Assembly: GCF_030539875.1 (NCBI RefSeq)
Contig: NZ_JAUNXI010000018.1
Span: 1-36,018, forward strand
Source: Methanobrevibacter sp.
Lineage (GTDB): Archaea; Methanobacteriota; Methanobacteria; Methanobacteriales; Methanobacteriaceae
Direction of reading: 5' to 3'
DNA: 36,018 nt
Shown: positions 27,664 through 36,018 of the stretch, piece by piece
Numbering within the stretch: the stretch's first letter is position 1
Layout: every line of letters starts with the position of its first letter
Notes under the pieces: model-generated
Seen by the model: the letters and a program-made list of their open reading frames with translations, nothing else
The model's database searches: none
What the model was told of the DNA's origin: nothing
Position numbers and translations under genes: made by a program

Positions 27664-28344
27664 TTATATTGGAGTTACACTGTAATAATTGATAGACCTG
27701 CCATTAGTGGCATTATCAATCTGTGAAAACTTACACCTTTTCAATCCTTTTGTCGGATCAGCCACAAGATATGAATCACCAGATACGCCATAAATCAAAA
27801 TATAATGGCCGTAATTATTCACATAACCTAAGCATGATGGTTTGGTCTTACCACCAGTTTCAATATGTGCAATTACTGTTTTGCCTAATCGTAAATTATT
27901 TTTCACTGCGGATGAAATCCTGGTAATTTTTGTTACTTTATAACCAAGACTTTTTGCACCAGCAATAAGATTTTCTGGACTGGTACCATTATGATTAGTC
28001 TTGCATTTTTTAGCACAATCCTTTTCACTTATGTAGCTGTATAACATTTGAATAGCCATCGAGAGACTTGTTGGTCCGCAATTATATGCATTATTCTGAT
28101 AATCCAACACTAAAGGATTGTTAGCTGTTGAATTTAAAGTGACATAATTGGGATACCTTCCATGCTTACGTATGAAGACATTTTGTGCTTCAAATAATCC
28201 GTTATAATGTGTTTTGTTTAATTTATGATTTTTACCAGCCATATCAGTCATTGTAACTGATGATGGCAATCCTTTGTTATTTTTTATAGATGTTCTTATA
28301 ATCTTTGATGCTTTATTCATTTCTTTTTTGCTAAATTTAACCAT
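27664..28344 (-). CDS. Pseudomurein-targeting lysin: pseudomurein-binding repeats plus C39-type cysteine peptidase
   Basis: A 226-residue protein. Residues about 5-72 contain two units ending in the pseudomurein-binding-repeat pattern, NNKGLPSSVTM and KHGRYPNYVTL, each after a helix. The rest is a papain-like peptidase of C39 type: Cys89 in YNCGPTSLSMA, His180 in YGHYILIYG and Asp196 in LVADPTKG form the expected Cys-His-Asp order. It plausibly cuts peptide cross-links of pseudomurein to release virions. No signal peptide is present. It is the last gene of the phage transcript, where lysins commonly sit. Published endoisopeptidases PeiW and PeiP use a different (C71) domain. Confidence 0.85.
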   Translation of the reverse strand: MVKFSKKEMNKASKIIRTSIKNNKGLPSSVTMTDMAGKNHKLNKTHYNGLFEAQNVFIRKHGRYPNYVTLNSTANNPLVLDYQNNAYNCGPTSLSMAIQMLYSYISEKDCAKKCKTNHNGTSPENLIAGAKSLGYKVTKITRISSAVKNNLRLGKTVIAHIETGGKTKPSCLGYVNNYGHYILIYGVSGDSYLVADPTKGLKRCKFSQIDNATNGRSINYYSVTPI

Positions 28345-28366: not shown

Positions 28367-30493
28367 TTATTTTATTTTTAATGTAATTTCTTTACTAGAT
28401 GCACCATATTCAATGTCGCCACCGAAATTGAAGTTAACGGCATAATCTCCCGGATTTAAGTTAACTTTTATTTTAAATTTTCCTTCCGCATCTGTTTTTG
28501 CAGTGTATGTTTTAGTTATTGCTTTTTCAGTTGTTGTAGTAGTGACTGGTTTGGTTGTTTTCTTTGTTGTAGTTTTAGCTGATGGTTTATTCTTGAAACC
28601 AGGAAAATTACTTGCGATTTCTTTTGCAGACTTGCCTTCTGCAATCCCAATACCTGCATTCAATAGATTGGTTCGAGGTTTATTCCATCCTTTAAAACTT
28701 GATGGGCTGAAATTATCATCATGAGCTCTTGGAAGAAACTTATCAGTTAATACCCGATTATACAAACCTATAACCATTTTTGCTTTTTTCTTTTTCAGAA
28801 CTGAATGATAATGAGAAGAATAACATTGTTCTTTTAAAGTACCAGCACATAGCCCACCATACAGTGTGAAATAGATGCCCTTCTTTTTAACTTTTGAAAT
28901 ATCCTTATAATGTGTGGATGGACCAATTCCACCAACTGTGACACTATATCCTCTTTTCCTCAATAAATCTGCTATATCATTCATTAATTTTTTATCACTT
29001 GATTTTGAATTAATGTTATCAGTATTCATGTAAACATGAATTCCGGTACCTTCTTTAAGTTCAGAAGTAGTTGTAGTTGTGACATTTTTAGTAGTTGTTA
29101 TAGTGGTCTCAGGTTTGGTTATATTGATTGAACATAATTTATCACTGAGTAGTTCATCTTCAGTTTTTAATACTGCAGTGACAAATCCTCCTTTTTTAAT
29201 AGTTGTATTGCTTGCAGTGATCCTTGTTGCTTTTTGATTAATTCTCGTTCCGATGTCTGCATTAGCTAAAGTGATTTTAGTTTCTCCAAGTAAGTGCGGG
29301 TTTTTTTCAATTTTCGAAATTTGAACTCTTACTAACTTAGAATAACCCGGTACTTTCACATACAATCTATCATACACATTAAAATTATTATCTCCGTTAA
29401 TTTGAGTTATATCTTTCAAGTCAACTTCAAGATTTAATTTAGGGTATCTCTTATCAATCAAAGTATTTGCGCATCTATTGTAAATAACATATTTGTTTGT
29501 TTCTGATGTTTGAATTACACCAATCTTGGGAAGTATTAGTGAAGTGGGATTTTCACCTTTTGATAGGATCGTATTATATTCCACTTCGGTTTCAACATCG
29601 TCCCGAATAAATAATTCATTAGCTCGTTTTTCAAATGGAGCTGCCCAATAAGCAGTTACTGTTTCAATAACATTATTATTTTCGTCAGTTGATTTTTCAA
29701 TAATCATTGGAATGTTAGTGCCTTTGCTAACAACAAGATTATTCCATTCGTTGATGATTGTTTGTAGATCTGCACGTGTTACTTCACCAGCTTCTCCACT
29801 TCCATTTAAACTTAATACTGGAGCAATTGCTTTGTATGTATCGGATTCTGTGATTTCATGTTCAATATTTTCGGCATTGAAGTTTAAATCTATAACTCTA
29901 TCGTGTTCAATACCTGCATGTGATGGTTGTAAAAAATCAAGGTATCTGTGTATAATATTATTTTCTGTGTCTTTTTCATATCTTGTTTTGAAAATATTGC
30001 TTGTTTCTTCTTCAATGTATCGTAAAAGCCCTAATTTAGTCATTGTACCATTTAGTGCGACATTTCCTCTACTGCCCATACATGGTTCGACAACACCTAT
30101 ATTGAAATAATTCCCAAATTGTTCCTCTAGCAATGTCCTGTTAATTGTTTTTGTTTCAGCAGAATATTGTTTAAATAGTTCAACATAATTTAGTTCGACA
30201 AGCACTTCTTCCAATTCCAATTCCACATTATTCTTGTCCCAGTAATCGTATTTGATTGAATTACTAATTACATATAAACAACCATTTAAACAATTTTTTT
30301 CAGGAACCCATGCTTTATTACCTATTTTGAATAATTCTTTTGTCAGATTAATATTTGCAGTGTCAAGAGGATAAGTTATAGTTATCCTCTGTAGTTCTCC
30401 TATTTCGCTGACTTGTTTTATTTCCAATTGTTCAGTATCAAGATATTTTAACGGTTCTTCTTGTTGATTTAGTATTAATACTGTGAAACTCAC
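28367..30493 (-). CDS. Tal-like phage tail protein with an inserted unknown domain
   Basis: I start it at GTG 30493, because GGTGGT lies just upstream and the previous gene stops two bases earlier; a longer frame to 30598 would overlap that gene by 100 bases. The 708 residues break into: 1-425, resembling phage minor structural/tail-endopeptidase (Tal/Gp37-like) proteins that form the tail tip (VYDRLYVKVPGYSKLVRVQI near 373-392 is typical); 426-458, first half of an Ig-like domain; 461-476, Thr-rich linker; 482-634, unknown domain with conserved-looking RAHDDNFSPSSFKGW; 640-658, second Thr-rich linker; 660-708, second half of the Ig-like domain (TYTAKTDAEGKFKIKVNLNP). It probably contacts the host surface. 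Confidence 0.75.
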   Translation of the reverse strand: MSFTVLILNQQEEPLKYLDTEQLEIKQVSEIGELQRITITYPLDTANINLTKELFKIGNKAWVPEKNCLNGCLYVISNSIKYDYWDKNNVELELEEVLVELNYVELFKQYSAETKTINRTLLEEQFGNYFNIGVVEPCMGSRGNVALNGTMTKLGLLRYIEEETSNIFKTRYEKDTENNIIHRYLDFLQPSHAGIEHDRVIDLNFNAENIEHEITESDTYKAIAPVLSLNGSGEAGEVTRADLQTIINEWNNLVVSKGTNIPMIIEKSTDENNNVIETVTAYWAAPFEKRANELFIRDDVETEVEYNTILSKGENPTSLILPKIGVIQTSETNKYVIYNRCANTLIDKRYPKLNLEVDLKDITQINGDNNFNVYDRLYVKVPGYSKLVRVQISKIEKNPHLLGETKITLANADIGTRINQKATRITASNTTIKKGGFVTAVLKTEDELLSDKLCSINITKPETTITTTKNVTTTTTSELKEGTGIHVYMNTDNINSKSSDKKLMNDIADLLRKRGYSVTVGGIGPSTHYKDISKVKKKGIYFTLYGGLCAGTLKEQCYSSHYHSVLKKKKAKMVIGLYNRVLTDKFLPRAHDDNFSPSSFKGWNKPRTNLLNAGIGIAEGKSAKEIASNFPGFKNKPSAKTTTKKTTKPVTTTTTEKAITKTYTAKTDAEGKFKIKVNLNPGDYAVNFNFGGDIEYGASSKEITLKIK

Positions 30494-30494
30494 A

Positions 30495-33311
30495 TTACCA
30501 CCTTTCAAAAAATCTAACAGATTGTATATTTGCAGTGTTATTACAGTTGAAACTATATTCTCCTTGTATGACGAACCAGTCACAATTAATATCAACATCA
30601 GAAGTAATGTTTATATTTACATACTCTTCAGCATTATCAGGGTTATCTTCAAGCAAATATGCTTCACGATTGCTACAATCAATTCGTAATAATTTATTAA
30701 CAATGTTATTGCCACGAATAATTAATTCCTGATTACTTCTGTCTTCAGTAATAACTACCGTATTCTCCAATGCAACAACGTAAATTTCAGGATTGACTTT
30801 TGCAATACTATTATTCACACCGTATGCGTTAGAAATATTCATATTCTTGTTGATACTAGTACCAGATGGGACAATTAATTTTATAGTTCCATCATAATTA
30901 GCAGATTCTGCCTTAGCATCAATTGCATCTTCAGTAATGAATTCCCAAATCCTATCAGGATAATGTGAAAATTCAATAGTATTTAAGATAGGTTTGTTGA
31001 ATTTATCACGTTCATTAGCAAATAATCTCCCAATACGTTCAAGGAATTTTGCAGTTTCTGTTATGGTACAACCAAAAACACTAAATTCAATTTCAATTTC
31101 TTTTTTCTGAATACTGCTACGATATGCTATTGTTGAATCGGTTCCGTCAACATCCAAGTATTTAACCTCATTTTCAGTACCTGCAGGAATTTTCACAGTA
31201 TTAAGGAACATATTATAATATCTCACATCCTTACCATTCACACGACATTTTACCAGTGATTCTTCTACTTCAAGATAATGGAATGTGACTTTAATATTAT
31301 TCAGTTCAATGTAACTATCATAGTTAAATGCGTTCAGCAGGTTTAGTTCTAATTCAAAATTATCAAGATTACCATCAAGGAAATCATCGAAACTAAGACC
31401 CCATAAGTCAAATTCCCCACCAATACTTTGAGAATCAGTTGTGGGATTGACATTAATGCTTCTTTGACCAGTTTTATTATTTATCACTAATTTCATCAGT
31501 AATGCAAATTCTGAATCACAATTAACATCAAAATCAACACTAACTCCTTGGATAACTACATTATTCTCTAATGCCAAACCAGATATATCGAAACCATACA
31601 CACGAATTGGATTGGTACTCTTATTGCTTGGAACATTCGCAACACAAAAATCATCACTACTGCTTATTTGTTTTATTGGATAAGGGAAAAGACCGGGTGC
31701 TTCACGATTCACAATAAATTCTGTTTCCATCAAGCAAGGATAAGTGTATTGTATTTTAAATGCTCTTGCATTTGCTTCAAGATATTCTCCAGTAATAAAA
31801 ATTATCACAGGATATTCTGAGTGATAAATAAAATCAACACTTAATTCCTCTTCAACATTAGGTGCACTAACGGATTCAGAGAAATAAGTATAATTTAAAT
31901 AATCTGAATCTGTAAAATCATCATATTTTTCACCATTAAAAACACCTAAACGATAATTGTTATTGTATGGGTCAAAAAGGTTAATATTATCAACATCAAG
32001 CAGTAATTTAAATACACTGCTTACAGTATATGTTTTCCCATCTCCCAAACGATCTAAAATTTTCTCATCTAACACTATTTTTGAGAAAAAAGGAATTGTT
32101 AATTCACTGTTTTTAATTTTGATATTATAGTTTTTTGTAACATTCTCAAAAACAGTAGTGAAAGTATGATTACCAGATATATGGCACTTTATTTTAAATG
32201 CCATTTCTGAGACGTTTTGTTCAGATAACTCAGGAGTAAAAACATAATTATTTCCATCAAAAATTACTTGATCATTTCCACTAAGAAGTGAAACCTCAAA
32301 ATTATCCGGAAAGTTAATATTAACTGGTGAGGAAGTATTAGTTGTTTTTTCTGAAACAACAGAAACCAGAAGCTCACCATCTTCACCACTATTAATCACC
32401 TCATCATAATCAACATACAACTCTATACGATTATCTGAAACTTTAAAAATTGTTTTAGTACTTGTATTTGTTGTTGATTCTCTGAAAAGTAATGATTTGT
32501 TCCCACTTGTTGTGAATAATACTTTAAAGCCTACATTAATGGATTTAGTGTTTTGGAAATTACCTTGCCAGGTGACAACATTTCCATTAACTGTAAAAAC
32601 ACCATTCCCTCTTGTTTTTTCTTTAAAAACAACACCTGAAGGTAATGAAAAACTAACTTTCGAAGCATATGAACTTATATTTCCAGTTTTACTAGTTAAT
32701 GAAAGATTAATTTCTGCAGAATCCCCAACAAGATATTCTTCATTTTGCATTGCTGAAGAACTAATACTAAAACTAAAATCTGTATAAGTAACTTCCACCC
32801 AAACATCTTTTAACTGAATTTGTGCAGGATTAGTACTACTATTTGCAGGATAATTAATTTTAACTCCAAAATTACCATTATTGATTTTAGATGGTGAAAT
32901 ATCAACATTACTAAAAGTTGTAACGAAACTTTTACTACTTGTTGGAACAGCATATCCTTTCGCATTATAACTTGTAGTTAATAATGAAATCGTAGGGGAA
33001 GCAAAAACACCATAAGCACCACCTATACGATTTTTACGATGAGTATAACCTACACGAATACGAGTTATTTTAGCATGAGCAGGGATATTAAAACCAAAAT
33101 TTTTAAGACTAATGGTGCTGGGTCTGTTCCAAGTACCCGTTTTACCTCCAATTAAAGTATAATCATTATTACTACTTGTAACACCACAATTAGCCCAATT
33201 AACACCACTTTTAAGATTATCTAAATTAGTCCATTTACGATAATATTTCTCACCTTTATATGATCCACTTGTTTGTGTGATGCTTTGAGCATATTTTTCA
33301 ACTGTAACCAT
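30495..33311 (-). CDS. Dit-like phage distal tail protein with N-terminal beta-sandwich modules
   Basis: A 938-residue protein. The last 250 residues (from VKCRVNGKDVRYYNMFLNTVK through FLERIGRLFANERDKFNKP and IWEFITEDAIDAKAE) follow the distal tail (Sipho_tail) pattern: small insert-rich strands, a helix, and a substituted galectin-like end. Residues about 1-180 form a beta-rich module similar to the end of the upstream Ig protein. Residues about 180-400 look like DUF11/Ig-type repeats (VGDSAEINLSLTSKTGNISS). No signal peptide, consistent with a virion component. It stops two bases before the Tal-like gene, matching the usual Dit-Tal order in siphoviruses. Confidence 0.7.
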   Translation of the reverse strand: MVTVEKYAQSITQTSGSYKGEKYYRKWTNLDNLKSGVNWANCGVTSSNNDYTLIGGKTGTWNRPSTISLKNFGFNIPAHAKITRIRVGYTHRKNRIGGAYGVFASPTISLLTTSYNAKGYAVPTSSKSFVTTFSNVDISPSKINNGNFGVKINYPANSSTNPAQIQLKDVWVEVTYTDFSFSISSSAMQNEEYLVGDSAEINLSLTSKTGNISSYASKVSFSLPSGVVFKEKTRGNGVFTVNGNVVTWQGNFQNTKSINVGFKVLFTTSGNKSLLFRESTTNTSTKTIFKVSDNRIELYVDYDEVINSGEDGELLVSVVSEKTTNTSSPVNINFPDNFEVSLLSGNDQVIFDGNNYVFTPELSEQNVSEMAFKIKCHISGNHTFTTVFENVTKNYNIKIKNSELTIPFFSKIVLDEKILDRLGDGKTYTVSSVFKLLLDVDNINLFDPYNNNYRLGVFNGEKYDDFTDSDYLNYTYFSESVSAPNVEEELSVDFIYHSEYPVIIFITGEYLEANARAFKIQYTYPCLMETEFIVNREAPGLFPYPIKQISSSDDFCVANVPSNKSTNPIRVYGFDISGLALENNVVIQGVSVDFDVNCDSEFALLMKLVINNKTGQRSINVNPTTDSQSIGGEFDLWGLSFDDFLDGNLDNFELELNLLNAFNYDSYIELNNIKVTFHYLEVEESLVKCRVNGKDVRYYNMFLNTVKIPAGTENEVKYLDVDGTDSTIAYRSSIQKKEIEIEFSVFGCTITETAKFLERIGRLFANERDKFNKPILNTIEFSHYPDRIWEFITEDAIDAKAESANYDGTIKLIVPSGTSINKNMNISNAYGVNNSIAKVNPEIYVVALENTVVITEDRSNQELIIRGNNIVNKLLRIDCSNREAYLLEDNPDNAEEYVNINITSDVDINCDWFVIQGEYSFNCNNTANIQSVRFFERW

Positions 33312-33312
33312 T

Positions 33313-35439
33313 CTATATCGCCCCCTGTGCAGGAATATATGTTGCAGTTAATTTAACACCAATGAAATATATTTGTCCTATTTCACCACTTGTATTTGCA
33401 GGGAATTGTGCTTTAACTGTAACTCCATCATTCAAACCGGCAGCTGTTGCTCCTGAATAATTGAATGTTCCTGAAACATATGTGCCTTTTCCAGGAGTTC
33501 CTGCAGTTTTTGTATGAGTTGAACCTGACCCATCACCTGAAATAGTGATTGTTGGAGCACCGATTGAAGCATACCCACTTCCACTCGTATATTTAACAAG
33601 TTGGCTTTTCCAATCTGCTTTAAGATTTGTTACTGTGCAACCAGAAGGCAATGAAAATTTAATAACTTTTGATAGTAAGCAAGGTTTCTTATGACTTCCA
33701 GATGAAGTTGCAATGTTTGTACATCTTGCATAATTCGTATTACAGTCAGTGTAAGCATCTGTCCAACTGCGAGTGGAGGTTGTTTCCGCAGCAACATCCC
33801 ATGTTCCAGGACATTTGCTTTCTGTTTTTGGAGATAATATTTTAAATGTTTTAGAAATGCTAACTGATTCATATTTAGAATCTCCATTGAATTTGTAAGT
33901 TATAGTGTAACTAGAACCTGCTGTTCCATTAAATGCTTTTGTCACTTTACCTTCAATATTTGTAGTTAATGTTCCACTTGTAGCCCCACTAAGCACAACA
34001 GACTTATTAGCCAATACAGTACCTTTACTATTTTTTAGAATAGCTCCTACTTTCCAACCAGAGTAAATATCTGATGTAATTACAGTAATCAGAGGTTTAT
34101 CTTTAATGATATTAACAACAACATTACTGCTTTGAGATGAATTATACTCATCTGTTTCGTTAAATACTGCATGAAAAGTATGTTCTTTAATTTCAGTAGC
34201 AGAATAATTATAATTAGCAACATTACCTGTTAATGATACAGTTTCTAATAATTTATCATCATCATAGAAACTAACAGTGCCATTGATAGTCTGATTATCC
34301 TCTGAGGATACGGTTGCAGATAATGTGAAATCCTCAATAAAACTAATACTTGATGAACTATTACTGCTTGTTAGAGAAGTAACAGTATTTAATTTTCCAA
34401 CAGTAACTGTTTCAGAGATAGTTTTTGAAGAATAATAGTTATTTTCAACCGAACTTACTTCCACAACCATATCTCCATTAGATGAAACAATATAATTCAG
34501 AACAAATTGCCCATTATTATCAGTAACTCCGGTATATTGAGTATCCAAAATATCAATAATCAATTCAATACCTTCTAAAAGATTACCCATTTTATCAGTT
34601 ACATAAAAAGTTAGAGGAATAGTATCTCCAGTATTATACTGTGCCGAAGGATAGTGTAAATTAATAGATGGTTCAGATAATTTTATGGTTTTAGTTACAA
34701 TAGGGGATTGTGAAGGCAAATACTCAACAGTTTTATTAAAAACAGCTTTAAAATTTAAATCGCTCCCATAATCTCTTTTTAAATCATGAGCATTATAATA
34801 ATTCAAACATCCTCCCTGTTCATCAGTGATGCTTGAATTTAATAATGTATCATCATTATAAATTTCAACAACACCTCCACTTATGGGAACATTATCATCA
34901 CGTAAAAGAGTAGCATTAACAACAACGGTATCTGCAACATCTATAACATTAGGATATACATTTAAAGCAATACTTGTGTTATAATAAACATAAACAGTAA
35001 CATTTGTGCTTGTTGCATCATACTGCAACTCATCATTTGTTTTAACAACAATAATATGTTCTCCACGAACATCACTTGAGTATTCATACTCACAAACACC
35101 ATCCACTGTTTCATCAGAACCCAATAACACATCATTTTCATAGAAAAACACATGTACATTATCAATAAATTCATCATCACTATTTTTTAATGTTGCTTTC
35201 AAAGTCAAACTTTCATTTGGAGCAACACCCTCAGCAGGAATCAATTCCACATTAACATATGCTTTTTCCCCATTTAATTTTATTTCAAAAACGGGCAAAT
35301 CAAGATTATCATGATTAAAAATAGTATCAGTTAGAATTGGAGAGCAATTGCTGCCCTCCATATGTTCTAACTGATTATCACTATTCATTACATTACCCAA
35401 CCCCCTACTACTCTCTGAGTAAACTACATATTCTTTCAT
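33313..35439 (-). CDS. Ig-like repeat protein of the phage tail module
   Basis: A 708-residue protein with about five Ig-like (Big_3-type) repeats between residues 60 and 530, seen by the recurring pattern of a Val-Thr strand, LLRDDNVPISGGVVEIYND-like middle strands and a Tyr or Thr-rich end. Residues about 540-705 are a different beta-rich module (TNLKADWKSQLVKYTSGSGY, GAPTITISG, TVKAQFPANTSGEIGQIYF) that recurs at the start of the next protein. It resembles methanogen adhesin-like proteins, but it has no signal peptide or membrane anchor and overlaps its neighbour by ATGA, so a virion adhesion fibre or baseplate protein is more likely. Confidence 0.75.
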   Translation of the reverse strand: MKEYVVYSESSRGLGNVMNSDNQLEHMEGSNCSPILTDTIFNHDNLDLPVFEIKLNGEKAYVNVELIPAEGVAPNESLTLKATLKNSDDEFIDNVHVFFYENDVLLGSDETVDGVCEYEYSSDVRGEHIIVVKTNDELQYDATSTNVTVYVYYNTSIALNVYPNVIDVADTVVVNATLLRDDNVPISGGVVEIYNDDTLLNSSITDEQGGCLNYYNAHDLKRDYGSDLNFKAVFNKTVEYLPSQSPIVTKTIKLSEPSINLHYPSAQYNTGDTIPLTFYVTDKMGNLLEGIELIIDILDTQYTGVTDNNGQFVLNYIVSSNGDMVVEVSSVENNYYSSKTISETVTVGKLNTVTSLTSSNSSSSISFIEDFTLSATVSSEDNQTINGTVSFYDDDKLLETVSLTGNVANYNYSATEIKEHTFHAVFNETDEYNSSQSSNVVVNIIKDKPLITVITSDIYSGWKVGAILKNSKGTVLANKSVVLSGATSGTLTTNIEGKVTKAFNGTAGSSYTITYKFNGDSKYESVSISKTFKILSPKTESKCPGTWDVAAETTSTRSWTDAYTDCNTNYARCTNIATSSGSHKKPCLLSKVIKFSLPSGCTVTNLKADWKSQLVKYTSGSGYASIGAPTITISGDGSGSTHTKTAGTPGKGTYVSGTFNYSGATAAGLNDGVTVKAQFPANTSGEIGQIYFIGVKLTATYIPAQGAI

Positions 35440-36018
35440 ATTATCCCTCTACTCCTTTTTTGTTTACCTTCAATTTTCGATTTAGCTTTTAAATCTGCCA
35501 ACTGAAAACGGAGATTATTTGCTAAACTTTTAATCCAATTATCACTACTGGTAGTTTCATTGATTAATCTTGCAACTTCCTCAGCAGAAACACCTTCCGG
35601 CAAATCAATGAATTTATGAATATGTTCAACTGTTACTTTACCTTTAATCTCAACATCCTCATCATTAGAGTTGTTATCCACTACAACAGTAGAATCATTT
35701 TCAGATTTAATGGCATCAACAAATTCACCAAATGTCAAACCTCTTTGAGCAGGTCCTGCATGACTAGCGGCAGGTGTCCAATTACGCTGATTCATCCAAC
35801 CAGTAGTGTCCATTTTGTGCCCGGCAACATTTGCCCAGAAATGACCTACACTTCCCCAATGCCCATGAACTTTATTTGCAGGTAAACCACAAGCATGAGC
35901 AAGAGCAATTAATGCATCTGAGGAATCACTACAATTCATGTATCCGGCTCTGAAAGCATTCATCCAAGAACCATACTTATCACTATCAAAATAGAAATCA
36001 TATTCGCATTGACCGAAT
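35436..36018 (-). CDS. Transglutaminase-like cysteine peptidase domain, C-terminal part (cut by window end)
   Basis: The frame stays open to the last base of the window, so the start lies outside; at least 193 residues are visible. A papain/transglutaminase core shows Cys in GYMNCSDSSDALIALAHACG, His in VGHFWANV and Asp in KMDTTGW, in the Cys-His-Asp order of transglutaminase-like and C71 endoisopeptidase enzymes. Conserved GLPANKV separates them as in transglutaminases. A charged helical tail follows. As the first visible gene of the tail module it may be the end of a tape-measure protein or a tail-associated wall hydrolase. Its stop overlaps the next start (ATGA). Confidence 0.75.
   Translation of the reverse strand, partial: FGQCEYDFYFDSDKYGSWMNAFRAGYMNCSDSSDALIALAHACGLPANKVHGHWGSVGHFWANVAGHKMDTTGWMNQRNWTPAASHAGPAQRGLTFGEFVDAIKSENDSTVVVDNNSNDEDVEIKGKVTVEHIHKFIDLPEGVSAEEVARLINETTSSDNWIKSLANNLRFQLADLKAKSKIEGKQKRSRGII

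Follow-up and report, generated by a model that had tools for sequence, protein, structure and literature searches.

An exchangeable alpha/beta cargo domain within a split Ig-like domain of a Tal-like tail-tip protein from a Methanobrevibacter provirus

In T4 gp5, the tail lysozyme is placed between hub domains. Integrin beta subunits and RrgA-type pilus tips have, at the end of a stalk, an Ig-like domain that holds a Rossmann-like insert; in integrin beta8, the I-like domain is inserted in the Ig-like hybrid domain. The RrgA/GBS104 pilus tips are vWA domains (PMC5536039). Decorated tail-tip proteins are already known as the evolved Dit and Tal proteins of Gram-positive siphophages, where decoration domains common to several phages occupy tail-tip loops (PMC7291167). 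Their scaffold is galectin or gp27-like and their insert a carbohydrate-binding module, and some evolved Tals have two decoration domains in the gp27-like part (PMC7291167). In the literature compared here, the enzymes described as lysing pseudomurein walls, PeiW, PeiP and PeiR, are cysteine peptidases (PMC2989375, PMC6189367). Almost no known peptidoglycan hydrolases turned up when pseudomurein-walled archaea were surveyed (PMC12352652). Pseudomurein glycan strands are beta(1-3)-linked and resist lysozyme, and pseudomurein hydrolases are poorly known (PMC2989375).

Here we describe a Tal-like protein encoded in a stretch of 36,018 nucleotides of Methanobrevibacter sp. DNA (the window). Like the evolved Dit/Tal proteins, it carries an extra domain in a tail-tip loop and has undecorated homologues. 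Window-type Tals differ from them in scaffold, which is an archaeal Big/Ig domain at the C-terminus, interrupted at a strand hairpin. Their inserts differ too and are flavodoxin-like, Zn-ribbon or transglutaminase-family; when tested, the window insert did not have a carbohydrate-binding module fold. What is new is an unnamed domain family and, in archaeal virus Tals, this Ig-hairpin mount, which takes three or more classes of cargo. The portions compared of the methanogen adhesin and pseudomurein lysin literature (PMC11532034, PMC12352652, PMC6189367, PMC2989375) do not describe the domain; the main methanogen virus survey lay outside this comparison and may hold an earlier mention.

The Tal-like gene and its split Ig-like domain

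The features of the locus are as follows.

27664..28344, minus strand: lysin, Peptidase_C39 plus weak PMBR (PeiR-like), downstream neighbour of the Tal-like gene
28367..30493, minus strand: Tal-like tail-tip protein, 708 aa from GTG
28370..28522, minus strand: second half of the Ig-like domain, four strands, residues 658-708 (profile, AlphaFold2)
28523..28582, minus strand: Thr-rich linker 2, the other predicted ribbon strand (AlphaFold2 model strand 238-252)
28583..29044, minus strand: inserted flavodoxin-like alpha/beta cargo, residues 484-637 (AlphaFold2 and homology boundaries)
28706..28729, minus strand: motif R589-A-H-D-D-N-F-S596 after cargo strand 4; R, D, D and S invariant in A2/A4
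29018..29020, minus strand: Asp492, invariant, at the end of cargo strand 1 (alignment)
29048..29107, minus strand: Thr-rich linker 1, one predicted ribbon strand (AlphaFold2 model strand 59-73, pLDDT about 76-80)
29108..29227, minus strand: first half of the Ig-like domain, strands A-B-C, residues 423-462 (profile, AlphaFold2)
29219..30493, minus strand: Tal body, residues 1-425, common to homologues with other cargo (36-71% identity)
30495..33311, minus strand: upstream tail gene, 938 aa, C-terminus distal-tail-like by eye
33313..35439, minus strand: Ig-rich tail protein, 708 aa (Big_3_5 and Big_1 domain matches)
35436..35963, minus strand: C-terminus of the tape measure protein, weak transglutaminase-like match, cut by the contig end

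Counted from its first ATG (30598), the open reading frame at 28367-30598 encodes 743 aa. The true start is likely the GTG at 30493, immediately after the upstream gene. The Tal-like gene is flanked by the distal-tail-like gene and the lysin, which has a PeiR-type make-up (C39 plus pseudomurein-binding repeat; PMC6189367). A family search with the 938-aa upstream protein gave no match. The Ig-rich protein at 33313-35439 has three Big_3_5 stretches and is encoded between the tape measure and distal tail genes. The contig breaks off at 36018, within the tape measure gene, and so contains only part of the provirus. Members of the Tal family A5 matched the tail-protein PHROGs 3475 and 12493 (7e-6 and 5e-5); the window Tal sequence itself matched neither, and we found no match to solved Tal structures. 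Family matches and gene position thus give indirect support to the tail-tip location named in the original prediction, where the protein would be exposed.

The same prediction held that an Ig-like sequence halts after its first strands and resumes about 200 residues later. The stretches it quoted (ASNTTIKKGG...LCSINI, RAHDDNFSPSSFKGW and KTYTAKTDAEGKF) are all present in the protein, and the two halves lie ~195 residues apart, with the break after the third strand. We observed that the joined halves matched an HMM of intact archaeal Ig repeats at 47.6 bits over profile positions 2-86 (best of 200 composition shuffles, 5.7 bits). Pfam Big_3_5 matched the joined halves only (E 1.3e-4 over 1-86), at 22.9 bits, below the cut-off of 35.5. 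Two Tal homologues (L133, L136) have the same Ig unsplit, as one continuous 99-103-bit match, and have about nine residues in place of the insert.

AlphaFold2 modelling of the Ig and insert region used an alignment of 51 sequences that held no intact Ig rows. We obtained seven Ig strands: three precede the insert and four follow it, and pLDDT is 83-91 in both halves. Both Thr-rich linkers were modelled as long strands, which we read as one two-stranded ribbon. With a pTM of 0.60, this model does not settle how Ig and insert are placed relative to each other. Strand content, profile and homologues together suggest that the halves pair.

We also considered that each flanking piece is a small domain of its own, with an ordinary neighbour domain between them. 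This would suit the score of half 1 alone, which was not significant (8.9 bits; shuffles up to 10.2), and because of that score we base the split on the joined match, the AlphaFold2 model and the unsplit homologues. Against independent domains, the halves are complementary on the Ig profile (positions 2-38 and 41-86, no overlap), the intact homologues have only those few residues at the site, and the first three strands are missing from half 2; we regard this explanation as very improbable. The data confirm that the Tal C-terminus is one Ig-like domain split by an insertion. An insertion at the same Ig position was also found in host surface proteins, in Methanobrevibacter. The insertion is beyond chance, since the domain is present in 94/139 related genomes and host surface proteins share the Ig position.

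Fold and conserved residues of the cargo domain

Modelled separately (AlphaFold2, 181 aa), the insert gave a five-stranded, flavodoxin-like structure (pLDDT 88, pTM 0.82). The original prediction gave no named family for it, and we found none in Pfam, NCBIfam or PHROGs and no enzymatic family by sequence profile searches; the model places the fold in a known general class (flavodoxin-like/Rossmannoid). A structure search returned generic PDB matches, the best being the B12-binding 1y80 (TM 0.42). The best viral structure match was a tail protein annotated as an endopeptidase (E 3e-6). Searched against PDB, the insert sequence profile gave short matches only, chiefly to designed Rossmann proteins. 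The Peptidase C71/transglutaminase profile did not match the inserted domain in 22 members; Transglut_core does match other proteins of the collected set.

In a 51-row alignment, D492, G515, R589, A590, D592, D593 and S596 were conserved, and G547 and H528 almost as well. The invariance of RAxDDxS is partly built in, because two collection scans used the motif as search pattern; among loci fetched by whole-domain similarity, without the motif, it was kept in 30/31 (the exception is L010). Host proteins of ~380 aa scored 48-58 bits on a family profile built without them (shuffles, 3.5 bits), and bacterial and remote viral rows kept out of the profile scored 70-106 bits (shuffles, 6.3 bits). Judged from the fold topology, Asp492, His528, Gly547, Arg589, Asp592, Asp593 and Ser596 probably share one sheet edge, as the residues of an active or ligand site would.

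Several known families were rejected on their motifs. The metal-site motif of vWA (MIDAS), DxSxS, counted anywhere in the sequence, occurred in 4/56 rows only, so that the cargo domain differs from the integrin and RrgA inserts, which are vWA domains with MIDAS. The B12-binding motif DxHxxG occurred in 0/56 rows, even though this family gave the best structural match. For SGNH/GDSL hydrolases, block I (GDS) was found in 2/56 rows and block III (GxND) in 1/56. A HAD assignment was likewise rejected on motifs. Inspection by eye for caspase/gingipain and Amidase_3 revealed no conserved catalytic His/Cys or Zn ligands, and both assignments were set aside. We found no relation of the cargo domain to lysozyme, and it matches neither C71 nor C39, the cysteine peptidase families of the Pei catalytic domains.

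Cargo exchange and occurrence of the domain

We collected Tal homologues by searching with the protein body alone. Two of them (L120, L125), 70-71% identical to the window Tal in the body, have Zn-ribbon modules between the Ig halves. Another two (L142, L143) keep the split Ig and have Cys-rich, Zn-ribbon-like modules as cargo. In L129, where the first Ig half is weak, a Zn-ribbon module is followed by a transglutaminase-family domain that is 42% identical to a domain of L046 passing the Pfam Transglut_core cut-off. Five homologous Tals therefore have a split Ig with other cargo at the same site. Comparison of the window cargo with these cargos showed no similarity (scores below shuffles). The original prediction of a cargo domain displayed from an Ig scaffold is borne out, and since homologous Tals hold unrelated modules in the same Ig loop, we take the loop to be an exchangeable cargo mount.

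We observed 72% DNA identity between window positions 28557-29056 and L098, a hub of a contractile-tail provirus (G055), with nothing similar outside the module. In the tree, the window cargo fell inside the L098-type hub group (support 100/97), apart from the split-Ig surface proteins. This cargo-only likeness, together with the tree position, indicates that the cargo moved between unrelated tail proteins as a module swap. Joint capture of cargo and split Ig from a host surface protein was not supported, on two grounds: the cargo groups with hub cargos, and the split Ig is common to Tal homologues.

Not all Tal homologues end in the Ig cargo mount; L130, L137, L141 and L134 end in C39-like peptidase domains. 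A Cys-rich CxxCG...GEITCxxCxADYCxxCG module, with no clear Pfam family, recurs in methanogen virus tail proteins (L127, L129, L139, L043), often beside transglutaminase domains.

The domain was found in 95/115 Methanobacteriota genomes, and 28/33 loci among GTDB species genomes were of methanogen type. Several near-complete genomes of the same order are without it, and the domain is therefore not essential for pseudomurein. In this phylogenetic profile, the tie of the domain to pseudomurein is strong and not universal.

In hub proteins of the L032 and L038 types, virus copies occupy the middle or the end; in L043-L056 they open a hub half. The genes adjoin tape measure, baseplate wedge and Baseplate_J genes. 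Transglutaminase domains occur in the same hub protein or the neighbouring gene. L032-type copies resemble T4 gp5 in that the domain is within a tail-hub protein, and an action on the wall is predicted for them too. Two adjacent genes seemingly encode the hub in L050 (6945-9170) and L053 (6913-9146); in both, the first gene ends in a transglutaminase domain and the next begins with the alpha/beta domain. A contractile-tail hub was also seen at 4017-6377 of L058 (JAFRCC010000006.1), a contig filed under a Clostridia MAG; its domain is about 60% identical to that of the window, with Methanobrevibacter copies as its nearest relatives, and the contig is probably mis-binned. The window domain was not found in public phage records, and a divergent copy was present in two records of one methanogen virus (vir080).

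Among host surface proteins, the domain follows either Ig repeats or PMBR-like repeats, so the likeness to Methanobacteriales surface proteins named in the original prediction proved correct. The split-Ig relatives carry the domain at the tip, opened at the Ig position used in the window. Adhesin-like proteins with archaeal Big domains (PMC11532034) have, as set out in the domain table and Results of that report, the same kind of Ig repeats as the window; these parts do not list the cargo domain, and a text search of that paper turned up no Rossmann domain and none described as unknown or inserted. In the ~380-aa host protein, a signal peptide and the domain are followed by a PMBR that passes the Pfam cut-off and, at the C-terminus, by a membrane segment; the signal peptide and the segment were recognised by eye. 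Like PeiW, PeiP and PeiR, this protein joins PMBR to a second domain (PMC2989375, PMC6189367). It is present in most Methanobacteriota genomes searched, and the source genome has a copy of such size. In three genomes (L091, L093, L094), a gene for a large beta-helix-like surface protein lies near the ~380-aa gene in opposite orientation.

Bacterial copies were rare: Riflebacteria with two PG_binding_1 domains and Wallbacteria with C39 and transglutaminase. Butyrivibrio AC2005 (L084, 308-10396) has a stand-alone domain gene, with no evident signal peptide in its product, between sugar ABC transporter and GH2 genes.

A proposed role at the pseudomurein wall

We propose, at a probability of roughly 60%, that the Ig loop is a mount for exchangeable cargo at the tail tip and that the cargo most likely acts on pseudomurein. 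The alpha/beta domain may hydrolyse pseudomurein or bind it, hydrolysis being slightly favoured. The hairpin between the third and fourth Ig strands (archaeal-Big profile position about 40) is opened, and the predicted Thr-rich two-stranded ribbon would lead outwards to an independently folding module at its end. At adsorption, the tail tip would present the alpha/beta domain to the wall; the domain would cleave or grip pseudomurein, and the tail could then reach the membrane. Host copies, tethered to wall or membrane by signal peptide, PMBR and anchor, would serve wall remodelling.

We favour pseudomurein because of the wall-binding and wall-cutting partners, the transglutaminase-family cargo at the same site, and the fixed-looking conserved residues. 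Of the wall-degrading or receptor-binding role suggested earlier, both parts are plausible; the PMBR, PG_binding_1, C39 and transglutaminase partners narrow it towards the wall, as does the transglutaminase-family cargo. Catalysis is a prediction here, because sequence gave no enzymatic family and the structural matches were generic. The same conservation pattern would be expected from a binding domain with a conserved pocket.

A tentative alternative, to which we give clearly less weight, is such a binding module: lectin-like or protein-binding, directed at wall or surface glycans and working as an adhesin tip in the manner of pilus-tip proteins or integrin beta, with cleavage left to the tape measure transglutaminase and the C39 lysin. 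Host copies do end the Ig-repeat stalks of adhesin-like surface proteins, the His/Trp alternation in RA[HW]DD would suit sugar stacking, and integrin beta8 was among the whole-region Foldseek matches, weakly (rank 34, probability 0.25, rmsd 32). Ig-like domains are also reported to be enriched in gut archaeal viruses, where adhesion has been proposed (PMC12134362). However, the charged residues are kept from archaea to viruses and bacteria, as one would sooner expect of an enzyme or a fixed small-ligand site than of a host-specific adhesin, and the scarcity of DxSxS speaks against a vWA-type adhesin. The exposed tail-tip location and the modular swapping between tails would also suit a host-range determinant, that is, a receptor-binding protein for strain-level surface structures. 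We consider this improbable: receptor-binding tips usually diverge fast, whereas the family keeps the same pocket residues in distant bacteria as well as in a host protein that is nearly ubiquitous, and its conserved polar residues are unlike such a fast-changing tip.

Among readings in which the cargo acts on pseudomurein, a bolder and rather unlikely one makes the alpha/beta domain the first enzyme family directed at pseudomurein glycan strands, or at a bond that the Pei peptidases do not cut; methanogens would remodel their walls with it, and their viruses would carry it as exchangeable tail cargo for entry. If true, glycan cutting would matter, because pseudomurein strands resist lysozyme and pseudomurein hydrolases are poorly known. 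A missing wall-acting function has a direct candidate in this conserved, unnamed domain, which virus tail tips share with host wall proteins, and the Ig cargo mount shows one way in which archaeal viruses swap their tail-tip tools.
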